A model generated the notes under the pieces. It ran no database searches. It was not told where the DNA came from and saw only the letters and a list, made by a program, of their open reading frames with translations. The position numbers and the translations under genes were made by a program. A stretch of 64,000 nt of DNA from a virus, in IMG/VR virus record IMGVR_UViG_3300008469_000001, positions 23,922 to 87,921 of that record. The stretch is one strand, 5' to 3'. This document shows, piece after piece, positions 13,820 to 26,460 of the stretch (position 1 is the first letter of the stretch; each line of letters starts with the position of its first letter).

Positions 13820-16657
13820 TTATTTATCCAAATATTTTGTTTTCATTAATTCATCAAGTTCTGGTAAATTTTCAGATAACCATTTTGATTCAGCTTCTAT
13901 ACTATCTATAAACAAATGAGTTTTCTTAATATCATTCATAAACATATCAAATTGATAAGCATAATTTATATAATCACCCATTGTTTTTGGAAGAACCTTT
14001 CTAAACAAATTCATATCATCAAGTCTTTCATCACCATTAATATTCATAAAATATTGATCTAAAAACTTACCCATTACTATTTTATCAATATCTAATCCTT
14101 TTTTCATATACAACATTCTTTTACTTTCTTCATTCATATCAGGAACATAGTAAATTATGAAATCTCTTTCCTTAACCATAATATATTTTATAGATTCAAC
14201 AAACAATCTCATAAATATCAGTCTGTCATCTAACTCTTGTAAATCATAACCTAAAGCTTTAATTTCTTTCTGTTTTCTTTCATCATCCAAAATATCAAAC
14301 CCATTACTTACTAAACCTTTTCCATACAAAATAATATAATCTTTCAGTCCTTGCATATTTGTTTTTTCAGTTAAATAAAATAAAACTTTAAGCGAATCTA
14401 TAATTTTCTTAACTCTATCTTCACTTACTTTATCAGGATCAAATCTCTTATACCATATACCATATTTTATTTCATAATCAAATTCTTCAGGATTATCAAC
14501 AACTGAACCTAATATTTTTAAATCGGTTTGATTAATAAAACCATCTTTATTAACATCATATATTGGTTTACCATTATTATCAAATGATATTGCTTGAGAT
14601 AAATCAGGTACATCATTAACTTGTCCAATAGCCATATCAGTTGGACTAACTCCATCTGGTGGACTTATAATATCTATATTATCAACAATACCATCTATAA
14701 CATTTTTTAAACTACCATAATCACTTAACATGGTTTCAAATGAGCCTCTATATCTTTTTTCATAAATATCTTTATTTTTATTTTTATTATATGATTCTAA
14801 TAAACTTATATTTTCTTTTTTTGATAATCTATCAACCTGTTTACCAAGAAGAGTTGAAATAATGTAATTATCAATATTTAAAAATCTATCATTCAGAAAT
14901 TCATATCCTGAATACAAGCTACCTAAATCATCTATATCTATAATGTCAAGCAATGAATAAGTTTCATCTCCTAATAATAAATCAAGATCACTTAATTTTG
15001 GTAACTCATCTTCATCAACTAATAGAACACCTATTGGTTTGAATTTTGGTGAATTGCTATCAGAAACCATAATAGCCAATGGTACACCAACATTTATTTC
15101 AATAGGAATATCTATACTGTCATCTAGATTCTTTTTTATATTTGGATAACTATTTTTATCAGTAGTTAAGTTTAAAGTTATATTTGATATACTTGAAAAT
15201 ACTCTTAATGTTGTTTGTATTTTATCTCCCACATATTCACTAAATGAATCAAGATATGTTATATTAGAACCATCATCAGATACACTTTTATTATTAATAA
15301 TTTTGAATTCTTCTGGAAACGATTCAAATGGTATCTTGTTCAAACTAAAAGTATAAACCCTTAATTTTTTATTAACAAACTTAGATTTAATAAGTTTATC
15401 TTTATTCAGTTTTATATTTTCAACTGCAGCTAAATATGATTTCAATCTATCCAATTTATCATCAATATCAATTCTAGTCGAACCAAACATATTAAGTTTA
15501 TCAGAATTACTAAAGTTTATATCAGTTTTATTAAACCCAACACTAACAACATTATGATCTAAAAGTGTCATATAAGTATTTAAAGTATCAGTATCATCAC
15601 TAAGAATTTTTTCATAAATTTTTAGATTATCTCTTTGATTATGTTTTTTAAGTGAATCTATTAACAACTCATTAGTATATAAGAAATCAATATCTGCCAT
15701 ATCATCAATCAATAATTCCATCATCTGTAAACCCAATACTCTTTCTTTCCCTTTATATTCGATATTTAAAGGAGTAGTGTCAATAATTTTTGAGTCTCTA
15801 ATTCTGGAATTTTCTACTAATAGATTATAAAGGTCAAGTTTTTCTCCATATTCATTAATCAATGGAGATTTTCTTATAAATTCATCAATAGAGTTAAGTT
15901 TCTCTTCTGTTGGTAATCTTTCTGGTGGTAGGGTATTATAATCTACAATTTCATGTCCAACTGAGAAATCAGTATCATCTAAATTAGCAGGGGTATCAAC
16001 ACCTTTATAGTCTTTATCCAGCATTTGAAACTCAAATGACATATTTGTTGACCAAATTCTTGGTTGTGTTAATAACCAACCATTAAGATTAAATGACATA
16101 GTTATCATAGCAGAATATTTCTGTGATTCTGGTTCTGTATCAATTTCAATACTGTCTAAGAAGACTTCACTAGTTGAAACAGGACACTTTGGTAATGGTT
16201 CTATGGTTACTTGTTGAGGTGAATTGAAATATGGTATTATTTGTTCTGATATTTCAAATGCCTGATAATCAGATGAAGCCCAACATATTAACTCCATAGT
16301 AAATCTTATTGGTGATGGTCTCATAGCCACATAACCAGTACTATATCCTAATGGTCTTAAATCAACGGTAATAGTATCTAATGGAGCTCTTCTTTTTTCA
16401 GGATTTCTTTCTAAAGCTGTCATCCTAAAAGAGAACATTGGTACACTAATATCTTTAATTCTGTTTCTATTTTTTGTTTCCTCATTATCAACATTCATTT
16501 CTAAATGCGAAATAATATCTGATGGTGAGCCATAGTGTATAGGTACACTTTCTAAAATACCTCTTCTATTTTTGTAAGGAATTTCAGAAAATAAGCTTGC
16601 GAAACCAACTAAGTAATTTTTTATTTGTCTACCATCAAAGTAAAAATTATGATTCAT
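13820..16657 (-). CDS. 15: Tail sheath stabiliser/completion protein gp15, with 700-residue extension
   Basis: 945 residues. The first 205 align along their length with T4 gp15: FYFDGRQIKNYLVGFASLFS, then VPIHYGSP, a polar segment, SPIRFTMEL, FEISEQIIPYFNSP, a strand-rich part and MSFNLNGWLL. T4 gp15 has 272 residues and forms the hexamer that caps the tail tube and sheath for head joining. Here about 700 further residues follow, mostly helical and charged, with an EF-hand/dockerin-type loop at 701-712 (DVNKDGFINQTD) that should bind calcium. It follows gp13 and gp14 homologues in the T4 order 13-14-15. The function of the extension is unknown. Confidence 0.8.
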   Translation of the reverse strand: MNHNFYFDGRQIKNYLVGFASLFSEIPYKNRRGILESVPIHYGSPSDIISHLEMNVDNEETKNRNRIKDISVPMFSFRMTALERNPEKRRAPLDTITVDLRPLGYSTGYVAMRPSPIRFTMELICWASSDYQAFEISEQIIPYFNSPQQVTIEPLPKCPVSTSEVFLDSIEIDTEPESQKYSAMITMSFNLNGWLLTQPRIWSTNMSFEFQMLDKDYKGVDTPANLDDTDFSVGHEIVDYNTLPPERLPTEEKLNSIDEFIRKSPLINEYGEKLDLYNLLVENSRIRDSKIIDTTPLNIEYKGKERVLGLQMMELLIDDMADIDFLYTNELLIDSLKKHNQRDNLKIYEKILSDDTDTLNTYMTLLDHNVVSVGFNKTDINFSNSDKLNMFGSTRIDIDDKLDRLKSYLAAVENIKLNKDKLIKSKFVNKKLRVYTFSLNKIPFESFPEEFKIINNKSVSDDGSNITYLDSFSEYVGDKIQTTLRVFSSISNITLNLTTDKNSYPNIKKNLDDSIDIPIEINVGVPLAIMVSDSNSPKFKPIGVLLVDEDELPKLSDLDLLLGDETYSLLDIIDIDDLGSLYSGYEFLNDRFLNIDNYIISTLLGKQVDRLSKKENISLLESYNKNKNKDIYEKRYRGSFETMLSDYGSLKNVIDGIVDNIDIISPPDGVSPTDMAIGQVNDVPDLSQAISFDNNGKPIYDVNKDGFINQTDLKILGSVVDNPEEFDYEIKYGIWYKRFDPDKVSEDRVKKIIDSLKVLFYLTEKTNMQGLKDYIILYGKGLVSNGFDILDDERKQKEIKALGYDLQELDDRLIFMRLFVESIKYIMVKERDFIIYYVPDMNEESKRMLYMKKGLDIDKIVMGKFLDQYFMNINGDERLDDMNLFRKVLPKTMGDYINYAYQFDMFMNDIKKTHLFIDSIEAESKWLSENLPELDELMKTKYLDK
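13821..13828 (-). promoter_or_regulatory. Late promoter motif GATAAATA
   Basis: Minus strand, overlapping the stop of the gp15-like gene and about 25 nt before the start of the small gene at 13797. One mismatch to TATAAATA; adjacent ATAAATAAA repeats extend it. Confidence 0.4.
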
Positions 16658-16666
16658 TTATATTCC

Positions 16667-17422
16667 TTATAGTTTCATAGTCATAATATCTAGACCAGTA
16701 TCAATAGATCTCTTTCTAGGTTTATTAGGTCTTGCACTATCAGTTTTCTTTTTTTCTTGTTTTATTTCTTCATTTGAGGCAGGTTTTTCAGTTCCATCCA
16801 TTATGTCCAAAACAGATTCTAATTTGGTGTAAGTATCTTTGTAACTTTCATCTTCATCATATTTATCCAATTGTGATGTATAATTATCATAAGTAACTTT
16901 AGATAATGTTACCATACAAAATATATTTTCCCAAAGGTTTGCATGACCAAAATATACATCTGCAATCTTATATCTGGTTTTATCCAATACAGTTTCAATA
17001 ATATCACCAATAAGTGGTTTTCTACCCAAAATTTCTTCTACTTCATCAACATGAATGAATAATTGTTGGTCACTACCATTTGGCATTATTACACCCCATT
17101 TAGATAAATCCATTTGATATTCTTGAGGAGTCCAGGTAGCCATCATTTCCCTTGGAGGACCTAGTTCTAAATGAGTGTGATCTTTTAGGGAATTATCAAA
17201 ATCTAATTTTAGTGTTGAGTCATTAGACTCAGGTTTTATAGGGAAGTATAGAATAGGTGCACCATCAAGTTTAACTTTTTCTCTAGCTACTCTCTTTATA
17301 AATGTTACATCTTTAGGTTTATTATTATAAACTTTTCTGGAATTAGGACCAGATTCAACTAATTCTGAATCTAGTTTAAAACCAGTTGGCATAATTTCAT
17401 TTAAAAAATCGGTTCTATTCAT
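16667..17422 (-). CDS. 14: Neck protein gp14
   Basis: 251 residues against 256 in T4 gp14. The central part keeps the gp14 layout: KVKLDGAPILYFPIKPES (T4 has GVECYYVPRE), a block ending DLSKWGVIMPNGSDQQLFIH, then GRKPLIGDIIE (T4 has GKEPKEGDLIY) and a strand-turn-strand before a variable, lysine- and proline-rich tail. gp14 forms part of the neck between portal and tail. The gene lies between gp13 and gp15 homologues and has an AGGGAG site and a nearby late promoter motif. Confidence 0.78.
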   Translation of the reverse strand: MNRTDFLNEIMPTGFKLDSELVESGPNSRKVYNNKPKDVTFIKRVAREKVKLDGAPILYFPIKPESNDSTLKLDFDNSLKDHTHLELGPPREMMATWTPQEYQMDLSKWGVIMPNGSDQQLFIHVDEVEEILGRKPLIGDIIETVLDKTRYKIADVYFGHANLWENIFCMVTLSKVTYDNYTSQLDKYDEDESYKDTYTKLESVLDIMDGTEKPASNEEIKQEKKKTDSARPNKPRKRSIDTGLDIMTMKL

Positions 17423-19402: not shown

Positions 19403-20044
19403 TTAGTTATTTTTTAAAAAATCAATCAAAAGTACATATGCATATCCTATAGAATGCGGTTTTTTATATCTATATTTACCATCATCTCTACCCAATTCCT
19501 TAAATTGTTCATCAAAAACTGGTATACCATAAGTTTCTCTTAGAATTTTTTGAGCTTCTTCTGATTTCTTTTTCAATAGTTTATCAGTATGAATATAATT
19601 TTTCATCTTATCATAATTAGCTACGGAACCAGGTCTAATCAACGCTAAAATAATAGCAATGTCATTTACAGATGAAACTTTAAACTCTCTAAGAATACCA
19701 GGATACTTACTCAATTGATATGGTTCATCATATTCCCACAATGTTGACCATTGGATATTTTCATTTTCTATCAGGTGTATATATTGTATTAATTCATCTG
19801 AGGATATATCATCCAAATAACTATTATTAAGAATATCAATCTTTTGAAAATGATTTTTTTCCATTGATTTATAATCTATAACAGCTAAATCTTGATAAGC
19901 TGGAATTGATTTATAAAAATAAACGCCAGCTGGATGAGGTTGATAATCTCCTCTATCATTCAAAACAGAAGCCCTTAACAAACCATTTCTAATTTCATCT
20001 GAGTCCTTTGCAGGTATATCCAAATCTAAATCTGAAAATTTCAT
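19403..20044 (-). CDS. Very small DNA polymerase III alpha (C-family)-like protein
   Basis: 213 residues, compared with about 1160 in bacterial DnaE. Landmarks of the C-family catalytic core appear in the right order: SDLDLDI at 4-10 (PDFDVDF in E. coli, with the two metal aspartates at D5 and D7), HPAGVYF near 37, IDYKSMEKNHFQKIDIL at 56-72 with D70 at the third catalytic aspartate, NDIAIILALIRPGS (the conserved RPGP loop), TYGIPVFDEQF (YGVIVYQEQVM) and KKPHSIGYAYVLL (NKSHSAAYAL). The PHP domain, most of the palm, clamp-binding and OB parts are missing. It sits directly after gp46/gp47. Polymerase activity is doubtful; homology is well supported. Confidence 0.72.
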   Translation of the reverse strand: MKFSDLDLDIPAKDSDEIRNGLLRASVLNDRGDYQPHPAGVYFYKSIPAYQDLAVIDYKSMEKNHFQKIDILNNSYLDDISSDELIQYIHLIENENIQWSTLWEYDEPYQLSKYPGILREFKVSSVNDIAIILALIRPGSVANYDKMKNYIHTDKLLKKKSEEAQKILRETYGIPVFDEQFKELGRDDGKYRYKKPHSIGYAYVLLIDFLKNN

Positions 20045-20091: not shown

Positions 20092-21939
20092 TCAATCTAA
20101 GTCCGGATTCACATCTAAAGTTGAAATCCCCCTAGATTTTGTAACTAAAATAACTTCTTTTGATTTTTCTTTTATCTCTTCTCTGTGAGAAATCATATAT
20201 ACTCTCATCTTTTCTTGTTTTGCAACATTTTTGATAAAGTAATATACAGATTCTAATAATGTACCATTGATACCACTATCCAAAACTTCATCCATAAACA
20301 GTGCATTAAATTCAACATTATTTTTTAGTTTAAACACTTTCATAAGTGCCAACATAATCATAATATTACCAATCCTTTTTTCACCATTTGAAAGAGTACC
20401 TGATGATACCTCTTTACCAAGCTTCATAATTCTTATTGTGAAATCTGGATTGAATTGTAAATGAATGTTAAAATCAGGAATCAATTTTTTAAAGTTTTTG
20501 AGTATTTCATTTGATTGTTTGATAAATTTTCTTAGAAATTTTCCTCTTATTTTTTGATCATCATTCTGTTTTATAAATGATTTAAACAACCTAACATTCT
20601 CTGAAACCCTATCAATCTCAGTCATATCTATGTTTCTAATTAACTTTGAATTAGCTTCTATTTCTGATAAGAAATGGTTGTCTTGACCTTCAATATTTGT
20701 TAATTCATTTTCTAGATTTTTAACAACAATATCAATATTATCAAGTTCTTTCTTATCAACTTTTGTTTCAACTTCTTCCATTGCTTCTTTTATTTCAGAT
20801 AATAATTCTCTTTTATCAGAAATGGAATGTTTAAGTTGTTTTTTACCTTTATCATGATCGGTAATACTTTTTTCATATATAAGAATTTGTTTTCCATAAT
20901 CAGATAATTTTTTATCACTTTCTGTTATAGCTGTTGCATCTTCCCAATCTTGATTACAAGTAGGACAAATATTACCCTTTAAACTAACATTCTTCTTTTC
21001 TTCTCTTTCATATTTCTCAGATAGAATTTCTATTTCTCTATCTTCTTTATCAATAATGGATTGTACATCTTTTAAATCACTTCTTAATTCAGTAATTGTT
21101 TCTGTCAATTTCAATTTATGTTCTTTCAACTCATCTAAAAATGAAAATTTATCAAGTTCTTCTGCAACATTAACTGTGGTGTAATATTCAATAGATTCAA
21201 CTAAACTATCGATTTGTTTTTTTCTTCTTCTCTCAAATTTTTCTGACGATTCATTTAATCTTTCTAACTGGTGGGTTATTTGTTCATTTGCATAATTAAT
21301 TTCTTTTATACTTGATTCTAATTCTGTTAATTTTATTGTATCATCTCTTACTCTATCTTTAACATCTGTAGCCATTTGATTAGCAGCTTCAAAACTAAAT
21401 ATGTTTTCAAGAACTTTCTTTTGATCACCCGGTCTCATATTCAAAAATGGTTTATTATGCTCACTTGCAACTGAGAATAAAGTAGTTTGTAGGAAGGTTT
21501 CATATTTCATTCCAACAATAGATTCAATAAGATTATTGTTATCTCTTATGTCTGCTTTTGAGATATTGTCCCAAGTATCTTCTACATTTTCAACTGTTTC
21601 AACTTTTTTATAAAGATTAAGAATGTTTGGTTTTCTTCCTCTTTCAACTTTAAAACTGTGTTTATCAATATCAAATTCTAAAGTAACTACACAGTCTTTT
21701 CCTTTTATATAATTAACAACCTCATTAGCTTTAACATTTGATACAGTTTCACCATATAGTGCAAAAGTTATACCAGCAAATATAGTTGATTTACCTGTTC
21801 CAATTTTAGCACCTTCAGTATCTTTATCAATTCCATCAATAAGTATTACTGTAGAACCAAACTCATTAAATTTCAGTTCTTGTTTACTTCCATAACTATA
21901 AAAGTTTTGCAATTCTAATTTTCTAAATTTAACTTTCAT
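20092..21939 (-). CDS. 46: Recombination endonuclease subunit gp46 (Rad50/SbcC-like)
   Basis: 615 residues; ATPase partner of gp47 that resects DNA ends for recombination-dependent replication. Walker A is KIGTGKST (K50), preceded by a slightly expanded loop. Long coiled coils at about 175-300 and 340-450 flank a zinc hook CPTC (325-328). The ABC signature LSNGEKR lies near 515 and Walker B/D-loop LFMDEVLDSG near 550. Length is close to T4 gp46 (560). Gene order 47-46 matches T4. No late promoter motif precedes the pair, which fits early or middle expression. Confidence 0.93.
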   Translation of the reverse strand: MKVKFRKLELQNFYSYGSKQELKFNEFGSTVILIDGIDKDTEGAKIGTGKSTIFAGITFALYGETVSNVKANEVVNYIKGKDCVVTLEFDIDKHSFKVERGRKPNILNLYKKVETVENVEDTWDNISKADIRDNNNLIESIVGMKYETFLQTTLFSVASEHNKPFLNMRPGDQKKVLENIFSFEAANQMATDVKDRVRDDTIKLTELESSIKEINYANEQITHQLERLNESSEKFERRRKKQIDSLVESIEYYTTVNVAEELDKFSFLDELKEHKLKLTETITELRSDLKDVQSIIDKEDREIEILSEKYEREEKKNVSLKGNICPTCNQDWEDATAITESDKKLSDYGKQILIYEKSITDHDKGKKQLKHSISDKRELLSEIKEAMEEVETKVDKKELDNIDIVVKNLENELTNIEGQDNHFLSEIEANSKLIRNIDMTEIDRVSENVRLFKSFIKQNDDQKIRGKFLRKFIKQSNEILKNFKKLIPDFNIHLQFNPDFTIRIMKLGKEVSSGTLSNGEKRIGNIMIMLALMKVFKLKNNVEFNALFMDEVLDSGINGTLLESVYYFIKNVAKQEKMRVYMISHREEIKEKSKEVILVTKSRGISTLDVNPDLD

Positions 21940-22038: not shown

Positions 22039-23097
22039 CTACTCTTGGTAAGAGTTAGATAATTCCTTTAAAAATTTTATTGCTTCTTGGTCTTCATCAA
22101 CTTTTTCGGTTGTTACTAAATTATCAATAACATAATCTGTATATGATTGATTTTCTAATTTATTAGATGTTTCTTCATCATCTTCATCATCAAGATCATC
22201 TAAATCATCCCAAGGTGACATTTGATCATCAAGAACTAAATCATTTATTCCATATTCTAAAATCAATGATGTTTTAAATTCTTCCAATTCACTATATTTG
22301 TATTTCTTATCAATAACTAATTTAAGATTATCTCCTTGATTAAATACTGTAGTTAATTCATCTTCCATCTCTTTCAATACTGACATTTTGAATTTATACA
22401 TTCTAGGGTGTTGGTACTCAATAAATTCATCTTCACCATTTTCACAATCTAATATAGTCCATCCTCTCTCATCATCATCTTCACCATAAAAAAATCTACA
22501 CAAATTTCCAATATATGCTATTTTACCTCTTGATTGTCTTTTATGAAAATGTCCCATAAACACTTTATCATAATTTTTTGTAATTGCATTTGCATTAAGA
22601 CCTTCTTCAGCTTTAACAAATTGGTTTAGCATAAAACCTTGTATTTCAATGTGACCCATTAAAAAGTTTGCATGTGGGAATTCATGTCCTTTCATTATTT
22701 CATTTGGAAAATAAGGTAACATATAAAATGTATTATCATGAATTTCTAGTGTTTTAGGTTCATCTACCAAATGAATATTTGGATAACCAGCAAATATATG
22801 TAGGTTATGTCCATTTGAATCATATGTTTTTTTTGACATGTCATGATTACCAACCAATATATATACATTATCAAATGTATCATTAATTTTAATAAATGCT
22901 TGTGCTAGATAATTTAAGGTTGAAGTGGATATTGATTGTTTTACATCAAGTGTATCACCTAAATTGATCATTGTAGTTATACCATTTTGTTTCGCATGTT
23001 CACATTGTTCATAAATACCTTTAAGTATAATATGGTCAAATTTACCATTTGATTTACCAAAGTGCCAATCGGTACTAATTGTAATTTTCTTATTCAT
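22039..23097 (-). CDS. 47: Recombination endonuclease subunit gp47 (Mre11/SbcD-like)
   Basis: 352 residues (T4 gp47: 339). All five metallophosphoesterase motifs are present: DWHFG (D10, H12), NLGDTLD (D48), LVGNHD (N84, H85), GHIEIQG near 150 and GHFHKR near 183. The C-terminal 70 residues are acidic, including a run WDDLDDLDDEDDEE. With gp46 it forms the exonuclease/endonuclease complex for end resection. It is the first gene of the leftward replication block, beginning at the edge of the origin-like region; an AAAGG site precedes the ATG. Confidence 0.94.
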   Translation of the reverse strand: MNKKITISTDWHFGKSNGKFDHIILKGIYEQCEHAKQNGITTMINLGDTLDVKQSISTSTLNYLAQAFIKINDTFDNVYILVGNHDMSKKTYDSNGHNLHIFAGYPNIHLVDEPKTLEIHDNTFYMLPYFPNEIMKGHEFPHANFLMGHIEIQGFMLNQFVKAEEGLNANAITKNYDKVFMGHFHKRQSRGKIAYIGNLCRFFYGEDDDERGWTILDCENGEDEFIEYQHPRMYKFKMSVLKEMEDELTTVFNQGDNLKLVIDKKYKYSELEEFKTSLILEYGINDLVLDDQMSPWDDLDDLDDEDDEETSNKLENQSYTDYVIDNLVTTEKVDEDQEAIKFLKELSNSYQE

Positions 23098-23135
23098 TCA
23101 TAATTGCCTTTCATCAAGAATATATATTGATATAT

Positions 23136-23141
23136 ATTATA
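23136..23141 (-). promoter_or_regulatory. Candidate -10 element TATAAT for gp47
   Basis: Minus strand TTTGTATAATAT, about 40 nt before the gp47 start. The same TTGTATAAT string occurs at 12837 (+), 24011 (+) and, on the minus strand, near 885 and 32382, always upstream of genes or in gaps. No good -35 was found. Confidence 0.35.
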
Positions 23142-23299
23142 CAAAATTTAATCAGTAATAATTTCATAGAAAATCATATACAATTTGACATTAATATAAT
23201 GGTGTAATTTTATCATAAATTCTTGTGTGAAAATCAAACATAATTATGACCTAAATTATAAGTGTATTTCAAATCAATTTTTTTAAAAAATAAATTCAA

Positions 23300-23337
23300 T
23301 GGCTATGCCAGAGGACGAAGTCCAAGGTACGAAGTAC
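23300..23337. repeat. Three consecutive triloop mini-hairpins
   Basis: TGGC-TAT-GCCA (23300-23310), GGAC-GAA-GTCC (23313-23323) and GTAC-GAA-GTAC (23327-23337). Each has a 4-bp stem and a 3-nt loop, and two have the GAA triloop known to make exceptionally stable DNA mini-hairpins. The stretch is clearly GC-richer than its surroundings. Confidence 0.6.
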
Positions 23338-23477
23338 TATATCTATCTTTATATCATATTTAGGCACTTATAGCGGACAATTCACTAGGCAATAATAAGG
23401 GGGTTTATAGCGACACCCCAAAAAAATCGTGTAAGCTTTGTGGAATTGTCGTGTAAACTTTGTGAAAGCATTTTTTC

Positions 23478-23493
23478 ACCTTATTATTAAGGT
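23478..23493. repeat. Imperfect palindrome ACCTTATTATTAAGGT
   Basis: Close variant of the perfect palindrome at 23927, followed by CTTAAAA. It lies between the first two iteron copies and the TAACTCAAAA block. Confidence 0.5.
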
Positions 23494-23521
23494 CTTAAAA
23501 TGCGAAAAAAAAGGCATGTTT

Positions 23522-23820
23522 TAACTCAAAAAATTTTTCTGATGTTTTTAGGGTACTAAATAACTCAAAATTTGAAGTTGATTAATTTTAAGTTTTTTTT
23601 AAGGTGATGTTTTAACTCAAAATTTGAACTTGATGAATTTTCTAAAAACAGTAGTGTATATAGTAGTTCGAGCAGTCTTATCGTGTAAGTCTTGTGGAGT
23701 TAAATCGTGATTGTAACCAAAAGTTTCTCTATTTGTAAATAACTCAAAATTTGAACTTGATGAATTTTCAAAAATAACTCAAAATTTGAACTTGATGTAT
23801 GAGGGTTTTTTAACTCAAAA
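23522..23820 (+). repeat. Repeat family B (TAACTCAAAA, six direct copies)
   Basis: Exact TAACTCAAAA at 23522, 23561, 23613, 23740, 23775 and 23811, plus one inverted copy at 24074-24083. Four copies continue into TTTGAACTTGATGAATTTT or close variants (23561-23589, 23613-23641, 23740-23768, 23775-23799). The unit differs from family A, so two proteins, or two domains of one protein, may bind here. Confidence 0.85.
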
Positions 23821-23852
23821 ATAAAAGTTGAGTTATTTAGACCTATTTTTCT

Positions 23853-23860
23853 TATAAATA
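23853..23860 (+). promoter_or_regulatory. Exact late promoter motif TATAAATA inside the origin-like region
   Basis: Plus strand, 18 nt before the iteron at 23878 and 276 nt before the Rep start. It could drive a late transcript through the origin or arise by chance in AT-rich DNA. Confidence 0.35.
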
Positions 23861-23926
23861 ACTTAGAAATTAAAAAATCGTGTAAGTCTTGTGGAGTTTA
23901 AAATTTATTTAGTAAAGTCTTAAAAC

Positions 23927-23942
23927 ACCTTATTAATAAGGT
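23927..23942. repeat. Perfect 16-bp palindrome ACCTTATTAATAAGGT
   Basis: Followed by ATTAAA. Its right half plus flank (AAGGTATTAAA) recurs at 24124-24134, directly at the ribosome-binding site of the Rep gene, which hints at an operator. Confidence 0.6.
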
Positions 23943-24013
23943 ATTAAATAAAATCACCATTTGATAAATGTTAAAAAATCGTGTAAGTCTTGTGGAGTTT
24001 AAAATCGTGATTG

Positions 24014-24019
24014 TATAAT
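24014..24019 (+). promoter_or_regulatory. Candidate -10 element of the rep promoter (TATAAT)
   Basis: Lies 15 bp after the last iteron; the spacing would put a weak -35 (TTGTGG) inside that iteron. Binding of the initiator to the iteron would then block its own promoter. Confidence 0.45.
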
Positions 24020-24135
24020 AGGGTATACACGATAATTTGATAAGATTTCCAATGTAAATAACTCAACTTTTATTTTTGAGTTATTTTCTAAATCTATAGA
24101 ATTATAAAAAAAACTTATAAAAAAGGTATTAAAAA

Positions 24136-25467
24136 ATGACAGTAAAAACAACAAAAAAATCACTCCAAAAATCGGCTGGTTTGAACCTAGAATTGAAGAA
24201 ACCATCTCAACTTTGTCAAGTACTATTTTATAAAGATTTCAACAAGGAAGAATATGCAAATCTTACACCATTACAAATTGATATTATCAATGTAACCTTT
24301 AGATTTGTTTCTGATATTATGGAAAAACAAGACTTAACTAGAGAAGAATTATTTGAATGGGCTAACTTAAATCACTTTGAAATAAATTTACAATCGATTT
24401 CTGATGTTCTTGGTAGATATAAGAATGGATATTATGAACCAATAGTACATAATTTACAGGAATTAACTAAAATTCAGGTTTTAACAAATACTCTACACAA
24501 GAATAAAACACAAGAATCAATTTTATTTCACTTTATTAGAAAGATAAGTTGGTTAAAAGACAAACAAACAACCAGTAAAAGAGTTAAAGTTTGGATTGAA
24601 CCAGAACTTTTATCAATGTTTTTAAATCTCAAAGACTATTACAGTAAAATGTATTTACCTATTCAATTAGGTCTTAAGTCCAAATATTCTAAACTATTAT
24701 ATGAAATTCTTAAAGATTATTCTAAATTAAAAGAGATAACTTTAGATTTTGATATGTTGAAAGCATTACTTAATGTTGATGTAAAAGAGAAACCTAGTTT
24801 AGATGCTTGGTCTAATTTTAATAGAGATGTATTAAAAAAAGCTGTTAAAGAAGTTTCTGAAAAATCAGATATTAAAATTGAGTATACTCCAATAAAAGAA
24901 AAATTAGATAAAAAAAGTGAAGTAACTAAAATTAAATTTACTATGAGGAAACAAAGATCTATATTAATTGATGAAGATGATATTGATGAAATGTCATTAG
25001 ATACACATATTGTTTCTGATGATGATGTTAGAACAAAAGAGTTATCAGCTGAAGATATTAAATATATTGAATTAGCACAACAAAGGTTAGATGATGCTAA
25101 AGTATTTGGAACTCAGATAAAAAATGAACAAGCTTATTTAGAAACCATAATTGAAAATCTTAAAAAAGAGAAAAAAGATATTCCAAATATGCTTCTTATA
25201 GATGATATTATCTTAGAATTAAGAGAAGCTTTTGAAGAATTTAAAAATAATAATAACCAACTTATTGTTTTAGAAAATATTGATTCGTATCCAGTTGTTT
25301 CTATTAGTAGTGAGTATTTACTATATTCACCAGTAGATAAATCTAATATTACGAAAAGTGTTGAAGAAACAATAAATAAGATAAATAAATTCAAAACAGA
25401 AGATGGGAAATTTAATATTATTGAGACTCCAGCAAAAATAAAGGAGCTTGATATTTCTTATCTTTAA
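24136..25467 (+). CDS. Plasmid-type replication initiator (Rep_3/RepB family)
   Basis: 443 residues. The winged-helix pair typical of iteron-plasmid initiators (RepE, pi, RepA of pPS10) is visible: WH1 at about 30-165, and WH2 from about 172 with LPIQLGLKSKYSKLLYEILK, then LDFDMLKALLNV, WSNFNRDVLKKAVKEVSE and DIKIEYTPIKE, closing with TKIKFTMRKQ near 275. This order is the Rep_3 signature, where the second domain contacts the iterons. Residues 280-443 are an acidic helical extension beyond the usual 230-300 residues. It should bind the repeats just upstream and start theta replication or regulate its own promoter. Start is ATG 24136 after AAGG; no late promoter is close by. Confidence 0.8.
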   Translation: MTVKTTKKSLQKSAGLNLELKKPSQLCQVLFYKDFNKEEYANLTPLQIDIINVTFRFVSDIMEKQDLTREELFEWANLNHFEINLQSISDVLGRYKNGYYEPIVHNLQELTKIQVLTNTLHKNKTQESILFHFIRKISWLKDKQTTSKRVKVWIEPELLSMFLNLKDYYSKMYLPIQLGLKSKYSKLLYEILKDYSKLKEITLDFDMLKALLNVDVKEKPSLDAWSNFNRDVLKKAVKEVSEKSDIKIEYTPIKEKLDKKSEVTKIKFTMRKQRSILIDEDDIDEMSLDTHIVSDDDVRTKELSAEDIKYIELAQQRLDDAKVFGTQIKNEQAYLETIIENLKKEKKDIPNMLLIDDIILELREAFEEFKNNNNQLIVLENIDSYPVVSISSEYLLYSPVDKSNITKSVEETINKINKFKTEDGKFNIIETPAKIKELDISYL

Positions 25468-25488: not shown

Positions 25489-26460
25489 ATGGGAAACAAT
25501 ATGAATGAAACGCAGATTGTAACTGATATAGAACAGAATACAATCTTGAATATAGACCCAAGTATTATTAGTGAAAACAAAATGGCTATTAATCTATTTG
25601 GTGAAGATTTATCTGAGATGGCACCAGCTATTAATGAAAATTTCATTAGATTGATACAAAATTTTTATGGTGAATCTTCACCGCTTAATCCATTAATTGG
25701 TCAACAATGGTTAAATAAAGAAGATAATATTTTGTATAGATGGATTGGTAACAATTGGGTTCAAACAGAAAGAGATAACACATTTGATTCATTTATGTTT
25801 GTTATGTATAACATTGGTGATACTAGTGAATTTGTTTTAGATGAATTTGTATTTAACTTTACTATTGAAAATATCAAATTATATAATCAAGATATGAATG
25901 ATGTTAAATTTGTTATTGACCCATTTGATTCTAGAAAGATAATTTTAAAAGAATCAAATATAACTACATTATATATAATGGTATTTCATCCAGAAGATAG
26001 AATTACAAATCCTTTTAAAAACAGAAAAGTTGAAATTTTTACAGAATCCGGACAAACCCAATTCGATATTGAATCATTTTTATTAGGTTCAGATATTAAT
26101 ACTCTGAGTGTTTCATTAAATGATGTAATGTTAAAAAATAATGAATTTACTGTAACTAATAATATATTAAGTATAAATGGTATGATTTATAGAGTTAGGG
26201 AAAATGATAAATTAACAATTTGGAAACATGGTGGAAGTTTGTCTTCATATTATTCAACATTTACTACAACTGTTAATTCTAGAGAAAGTTATGTTAGAAT
26301 ACCAAAGTTTTTCAAAAATATTATGACTATGGAAATTTTAGATTTAGATACAAATACTATTATTAATCCTATTGAAGTTAATGAATTTGATGACTATTAT
26401 CACTTTGAGTTTTTAGATAAGAAAAATATTAAGATTAATTCTAAAATAAGAATTATATAA
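25489..26460 (+). CDS. Virion structural protein with LWYN-type N-terminal module (baseplate/fibre candidate)
   Basis: 323 residues; GGAG site 9 nt upstream. Residues 30-75 (AINENFIRLIQNFYG, NPLIGQQWLNKEDNILYRWIG) match the short NP..GQ.W.....LY.W.G module seen in many fibre and baseplate proteins of marine T4-type phages. The remainder is beta-rich without a recognised family. It is followed by two genes with the same or related N-terminal module, so the three probably form one substructure. Co-transcribed with the Rep gene unless an unseen promoter exists. Confidence 0.6.
   Translation: MGNNMNETQIVTDIEQNTILNIDPSIISENKMAINLFGEDLSEMAPAINENFIRLIQNFYGESSPLNPLIGQQWLNKEDNILYRWIGNNWVQTERDNTFDSFMFVMYNIGDTSEFVLDEFVFNFTIENIKLYNQDMNDVKFVIDPFDSRKIILKESNITTLYIMVFHPEDRITNPFKNRKVEIFTESGQTQFDIESFLLGSDINTLSVSLNDVMLKNNEFTVTNNILSINGMIYRVRENDKLTIWKHGGSLSSYYSTFTTTVNSRESYVRIPKFFKNIMTMEILDLDTNTIINPIEVNEFDDYYHFEFLDKKNIKINSKIRII

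Follow-up and report, generated by a model that had tools for sequence, protein, structure and literature searches.

A candidate plasmid-type (Rep_3) replication origin in the core of a T4-supergroup jumbo phage

The best-described origins of the kind discussed here are the Rep_3 origins of theta plasmids, such as F (ori2/RepE), R6K (gamma/pi), pSC101 and pPS10. These combine a WH1-WH2 initiator with a small number of 17-22-bp repeats in the same direction, the iterons, next to the rep gene, and have at the rep promoter an operator with sequence in common with the iterons. A phage example is the oriR of P1, where a phage-encoded initiator, RepA, is found with iterons. P1 is a 94-kb temperate phage that is kept as a plasmid (PMC10999674), and its iterons are mentioned in a review which also describes that the WH2 domain of RepE contacts the GTG of its iteron and that the need for DnaA at iteron origins depends on the host (PMC4980987). 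Direct repeats are also present at oriE of phage T4; these are 12 nt long and iteron-like, with a role that is called ill defined (PMC3016281). PLE, a mobile element and Vibrio satellite of ICP1, likewise encodes an initiator that binds iterons; this RepA is of the RepA_N family, and the iterons are semi-palindromic (PMC7145576).

In this work we describe a locus in a window of 64,000 nucleotides (bases 23,922-87,921 of an 87,921-base virus record, here G000). Like the theta plasmids, it has a WH1-WH2 initiator and a few same-direction repeats next to rep, and these hold a GTG as the RepE iterons do. It shares with P1 a phage-encoded initiator and iterons, with T4 oriE the direct repeats in a T4-type phage, and with PLE an initiator and iterons of the element's own. 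Unlike the theta plasmids, the locus belongs to a T4-supergroup phage, its iterons extend over 570 bp and include a left pair that stands apart, its Rep has ~170 extra C-terminal residues, there is no close DnaA box, and conserved 23-bp dyads lie between the iterons. Unlike P1, these are T4-type jumbo phages, and ParA was not found in four of their records. T4 RepEB and RepEA are proteins of 45 and 50 aa and not Rep_3, whereas the initiator here is a 443-aa Rep_3 protein, so the locus is not of the T4 oriE type; and in contrast to PLE it resides in a large phage. The kind of origin is already known from F, R6K and P1. For a Rep_3 origin in a T4-type phage, the titles and abstract openings of the literature that we searched on phage iterons gave no report. 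PF01051 is absent from T4, and Rep_3 was detected in none of 12 named cultured T4-type phages, from T4 to the 490-kb Atu_ph07, by Pfam or by our own Rep profile.

The explanation that we favour, and consider likely, is that the 1.04-kb gap at 23098-24135 together with rep forms a plasmid-type (Rep_3) replication origin in the core of a T4-supergroup jumbo phage.

The phage, its relatives and the Rep protein

The record is that of a T4-supergroup phage and not of a plasmid. The T4-supergroup markers gp23, gp20, gp21, gp18, gp46/47 and gp55 are present (phrog_138, 213, 207, 23, 77/100 and 234), and the gene content includes SbcC/SbcD (gp46/47), tail sheath, portal, head protease, major head protein, head closure and a late sigma factor. 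As the initiator is of the Rep_3 family and the remaining genes are T4-type, we have a plasmid-type initiator inside a T4-supergroup phage, beside gp47/gp46.

Searches with the Rep sequence alone gave no match in viral_contigs, phages or genome_contigs, and only 36 weak, partial matches in plasmids. The gp23 major head protein gave 20 viral-contig loci, of which 18 are 81-92% identical; Rep was then found in 4 of the 16 resulting records that were searched for it, most of the others being short fragments. Further Rep relatives were added by a Rep alignment search, which in genome_contigs returned 4 partial matches (28-35%). Two distant Reps were used as queries in phages, one giving nothing and the other a single match at E 0.1. 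The order SbcD, gap, Rep and the same downstream gene is kept in G014 (289,880 bases), G002 (172,404) and G017 (18,831; locus L048), with Reps that are 60-61% identical to the window Rep. G014 and G002 are close, their Reps being 96% identical. More distant Reps, at 31-34% over the alignment, are found in G007 (306,333 bases, two Reps), G018, G019 and G020. L010, which had little to show other than SbcC/D, was dropped. G007 has two different Rep_3 genes (66651-67844 and 185755-186963), each with its own repeats, and in the 224-kb G020 contig a second, weaker Rep_3-like match (211568-212278, E 9.7e-14) lies 7 kb from the first.

The window Rep matches Rep3_N (6.4e-9) and Rep3_C (4.2e-11), both above the cut-off, as do the WH1 and WH2 Pfam domains of all seven relatives scanned. 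By sequence, the Rep profile matches R6K pi and F RepE. An AlphaFold model, built on a 9-sequence alignment, has a mean pLDDT of 58.8 and is confident mainly at residues 30-120 and 180-270, with low confidence for the ~170 C-terminal residues. When this model was searched with Foldseek, every one of the 45 PDB matches at E<=0.001 was titled RepE or Rep-complex, the iteron and operator complexes included, with a TM of 0.65-0.77 by target for most of the RepE matches. Rep is thereby predicted to fold like F-plasmid RepE. Between G014 and G002 the dN/dS of rep is 0.045, which is strong purifying selection.

Some other genes of these phages are of note. Next to SbcC, at window 19403-20044, a 213-aa protein corresponds to only a piece of DNA polymerase III alpha (finger), and G014, G002 and G007 have similar proteins in this position; another short piece of Pol III alpha was matched at record base 19612. 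G000 also encodes a full HSP70/DnaK (L005:13494-15392) and an HSP20 (15973-16386). HSP70 is found in G007 too, and is absent from G014, G002 and the 12 cultured T4-type phages; the G007 match (14922-17030) is in two pieces within one 743-aa open frame, as if by insertion in the middle. A link between the phage HSP70 and Rep is conceivable, because chaperones activate plasmid Rep dimers, according to the review cited above (PMC4980987).

Iterons, promoter and dyads

The initial annotation, made from the letters of the window, described five copies of a 21-bp iteron, all pointing the same way as rep. All five were recovered, on the + strand like rep itself (Table 1). The three right-hand copies, described as identical, are so over 22 bases (ATCGTGTAAGTCTTGTGGAGTT), and the last two over as many as 35; the tandem pair at the left end is diverged, as had been noted. 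At up to 3 mismatches the iteron pattern has 4 matches in the window, against 0.01 expected by chance. A search of the full genome for further copies had also been proposed, with many copies unrelated to replication to be counted against the interpretation; no such copies occur, the same 4 being the sole matches at up to 3 mismatches in the 87,921-base record (a reversed-pattern control gave 0). In the 1,038-bp gap, 5 copies of a 16-mer were observed at up to 2 mismatches, a number that none of 100 dinucleotide shuffles reached. The frame GTG-N6-TTGTG occurs 5 times in the gap and once elsewhere in the window, on the other strand. Same-direction repeats of ~17-22 bp that adjoin rep and are specific to that locus, as an iteron origin is expected to have, are therefore present.

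Table 1. Features of the candidate origin and its neighbours, in window coordinates.
Feature	Position	Strand	Remarks
SbcC-like nuclease subunit	20092-21939	-	
SbcD-like nuclease subunit	22039-23097	-	upstream neighbour; synteny anchor
Iteron 1, left tandem pair	23427-23447	+	3 mismatches of 20; aligned copy in G017, G014, G002
Iteron 2	23449-23469	+	22 bp after iteron 1; 6 mismatches of 20
Conserved block CACCTTATT...TTAAAATGCG...TTTTAACTCAAAAAA	23476-23538	+	directly after the tandem pair; from alignment
Second repeat family TAACTCAA	23522-24083	7 copies +, 2 copies -	9 exact copies; overlooked in the initial annotation
Iteron 3, extra copy	23681-23701	+	insertion relative to G017, G014, G002 (alignment), without counterpart there
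Half-site TCGTGATTGTA	23705-23715	+	
Dyad AACT-N15-AGTT	23812-23834		inside a 29-bp perfect inverted repeat, 23811-23839 with 24055-24083
Iteron 4	23878-23898	+	from pattern scan and alignment
Iteron 5	23979-23999	+	overlaps the -35 position of the candidate rep promoter
TTGTGG, -35 position	23990-23995	+	18 bp before TATAAT; 3 of 6 consensus bases
Half-site TCGTGATTGTA	24005-24015	+	between iteron 5 and -10; aligned half-site in G017, G014, G002
TATAAT, -10-like box of rep	24014-24019	+	iteron GTG to box 33, 33, 32, 32 bp in G000, G017, G014, G002
Inverted half-iteron TCGTGTA	24026-24032	-	just past -10; possible operator; overlooked in the initial annotation
Dyad AACT-N15-AGTT	24060-24082		inverted partner of 23812-23834
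rep, 443-aa Rep_3 initiator	24136-25467	+	WH1 ~40-193, WH2 ~205-269, ~170 C-terminal residues
Putative virion protein	25489-26460	+	downstream of rep; synteny anchor

The frame GTG-N6-TTGTG is common to the four syntenic loci, and its N6 core is phage-specific: TAAGTC in G000 (TAAGCT and TAAACT in the left pair), ATTCGT in G017, and ATTAGA in G014 and G002. Within G017, G014 and G002 the core is the same in all copies, with one additional frame match of differing N6 in G017 that sits between its paired copies. The left pair is spaced by exactly 22 bp in all four loci, and in the 289,880 bases of G014 the frame has just 5 matches, 4 of them in its gap. Because repeat and Rep have changed together in fixed positions, we take the repeats to be probable sites of the neighbouring Rep; the comparison of orthologous loci, in which the layout is kept and the repeat sequence is changed, strongly supports this. 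The suggestion that the two diverged copies at the left end are lower-affinity sites is not supported as a general design, as the left-pair cores equal the right-hand cores in all three relatives, so that the divergence is peculiar to the G000 phage.

Direct repeats were also seen upstream of the other rep genes examined. At least 3 upstream copies (3 to 5, by the same scan) are held by each of the nine rep regions examined, and none of 100 shuffles of a region gave as many, except for G007a, where 1 of 100 did. These nine are drawn from eleven Rep loci, leaving out G006, which is near-identical to G007a, and the second Rep of G020 at 211,568. Among the ORF-free gaps of at least 400 bp in G000, G014 and G007, nine in number, four contain a 13-mer at least 3 times, and these are exactly the four beside rep. 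A scan with the G014-type iteron found G002, G014 and one contig with a single copy, G021, in which no Rep was found. Seven viral_contigs with one exact match each to the window iteron (two with an extra match at 5 mismatches) were taken as chance. A block CCTC...CTCCTCTTTAATATTCTTTA..TCTATTCTTTAGG precedes the iterons at the distant Rep loci of G007 (both), L052, L054 and L055.

The last iteron had been placed over the rep promoter, as a direct design for autorepression. The geometry bears this placement out, with the GTG of the last iteron 32-33 bp before a TATAAT or TAAAAT in all four orthologous loci; from this -10-like box to the ATG there are 122, 112, 38 and 37 bp in G000, G017, G014 and G002. 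The rep promoter is missing from a consensus scan because TTGTGG agrees so poorly with the -35 consensus, and this weak match would be in keeping with a -35 sequence that is dictated by the iteron. Autorepression of rep through the last iteron is consistent with this geometry. The inverted half-iteron just past the -10 box is absent from the aligned G017, G014 and G002 and was therefore rejected as a conserved operator; it could act as one in the G000 phage alone. At the G007b locus an inverted iteron copy flanks the promoter (seen by eye, and listed in part by the scan). Upstream of the second rep of G007, at L046:5677-5790, the TTCATTTTCTATTGGGA repeats form a long inverted pair that flanks the promoter and reaches into the annotated rep start, a layout that is more operator-like than that of the window.

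The second repeat family, TAACTCAA, is part of a conserved 23-bp dyad, AACT-N15-AGTT, and also occurs in diverged half-dyads of the window. There are 2 dyads in the gap of G000, 4 in G017, 6 in G014 and 5 in G002, where the counts for G014 and G002 each include the first iteron as one copy. When spacers of 8 to 24 were scanned, the gaps of G017, G014 and G002 had only spacer 15, and G000 also had 3 with spacer 10. In G014, 6 of the 13 copies in the genome fall in its 752-bp gap. The dyad clusters in the gaps of all four syntenic loci (window 23562-24082) and is otherwise near genome background; the iterons share a similar 23-bp outer frame with it. It could mark the melting region or be the site of a second, dimeric protein. 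An iteron origin is also expected to hold an A+T-rich unwinding element with short repeats; the TAACTCAA repeats and dyads are there, but the duplex stability is only moderately low, and a stability computation gave no unusual instability for the gap as a whole. Beside the iterons, the DnaA box TTATCCACA has no match at up to 1 mismatch and only 2-mismatch matches. A short ORF in the conserved block 3' of the left pair is too short to judge.

GC skew and competing readings

The cumulative GC skew has its minimum inside the gap in two phages, at 120,105 in G014 (gap 119,406-120,157) and at 134,045 in G002 (gap 133,477-134,262). Since gene direction also flips at the gap, third-codon skew was fitted to gene strand and chromosome arm. 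The arm effect left after the gene-strand covariate is 0.129 in G014 and 0.166 in G002, with strand-corrected breakpoints at 119.5-120.5 kb (bootstrap 5-95% 113-120.5 kb) and 133.5-134.5 kb (bootstrap 130-136 kb), and for G014 the gain in fit is 162 versus at most 29 in 100 gene-order permutations. As G014 and G002 are close relatives, this coincidence counts as about one case and not as two independent ones. In G007 the uncorrected minimum, 44,422, is at the SbcD boundary, though this is a 194-bp gap without rep, and the corrected breakpoint at 50 kb (bootstrap 47-58 kb) corresponds neither to that boundary nor to the rep gaps at 67.8-68.6 and 185.3-185.8 kb. One reading of this mismatch is that the replicon has moved and the skew lags behind, another that rep does not set the skew. 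For the G000 record the corrected scan was not significant and the raw minimum is 441 bp outside the gap; G018 and G020 have no skew break at rep.

The skew minimum might be a mere effect of divergent transcription at the SbcD/rep boundary, with the repeats as the regulatory region of two divergent operons. The gene strand does flip at the same place, and the uncorrected minimum of G007 stays at the boundary without rep. However, the arm effect survives the gene-strand covariate in G014 and G002 with the best breakpoint at the gap, and the plus-strand genes of G007 to the right of the boundary (44.5-50.6 kb) keep left-arm skew, so the skew does not simply follow gene strand, and we hold this to be the least probable of the readings. 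It is also very unlikely that the cassette is a weapon of incompatibility or a passenger that mainly titrates or out-competes resident plasmids or rival phages instead of serving the phage's own replication. Iteron cores that differ among otherwise syntenic phages would agree with such a role, as would the mobility seen in G007, where the SbcD boundary lacks the cassette and two copies lie at other sites; against this, the position is stable in four contigs and coincides with the skew switch, rep is under strong purifying selection, and the plasmid Rep matches are only weak and partial.

A further reading is that Rep and the iterons keep the genome as a plasmid in dormancy, as in P1 or the mycobacteriophage Miko, and that lytic replication starts elsewhere. 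The plasmid-state origin of P1, a Rep_3/iteron replicon, is a precedent for this. In Miko, repA is described as dispensable in lytic growth and needed for the extrachromosomal prophage (PMC7157519), and G007 has two rep loci with the skew switch at neither. Yet a ParA-type ATPase (PF13614) was found in none of the four records G000, G014, G002 and G007, while the controls were detected in 14 of 14 cases; the genes are of T4 type and include a late sigma factor, and the skew switch is inside the gap in G014 and G002. We therefore think a phage-plasmid module unlikely.

A model of initiation and its implications

For the Rep_3 origin that we favour, we propose the following course of events. Judging by family membership and comparison, the five iterons, which all point in one direction, would be bound by Rep monomers; each iteron may consist of a GTG and a TTGTG half-site, separated by one helical turn. 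Bound Rep would bend the DNA, and A+T-rich DNA would melt among the TAACTCAA dyads that separate the left pair from the right iterons. The T4-like replisome of the phage, or a host helicase, could then load at the melted DNA and give rise to bidirectional forks, presumably during lytic growth. At high levels Rep would cover the last iteron and block the rep promoter, and the amount of Rep would be limited in this way.

A bolder proposal, which we consider rather doubtful, is that the whole lineage has exchanged a T4-style main origin for a Rep-iteron replicon, that drift in specificity has produced phage incompatibility groups, and that phages such as G007 escape these with two different replicons. 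If true, a superinfecting phage or plasmid of like type would be kept from initiating by the Rep and iterons of the resident phage.

The start of replication in T4-type phages is only partly known. In a T4-type lineage whose skew switch coincides with iterons and a textbook initiator, initiator-driven origin firing becomes directly testable, and four syntenic loci with three iteron types are a natural experiment on the joint change of initiator and repeat specificity.
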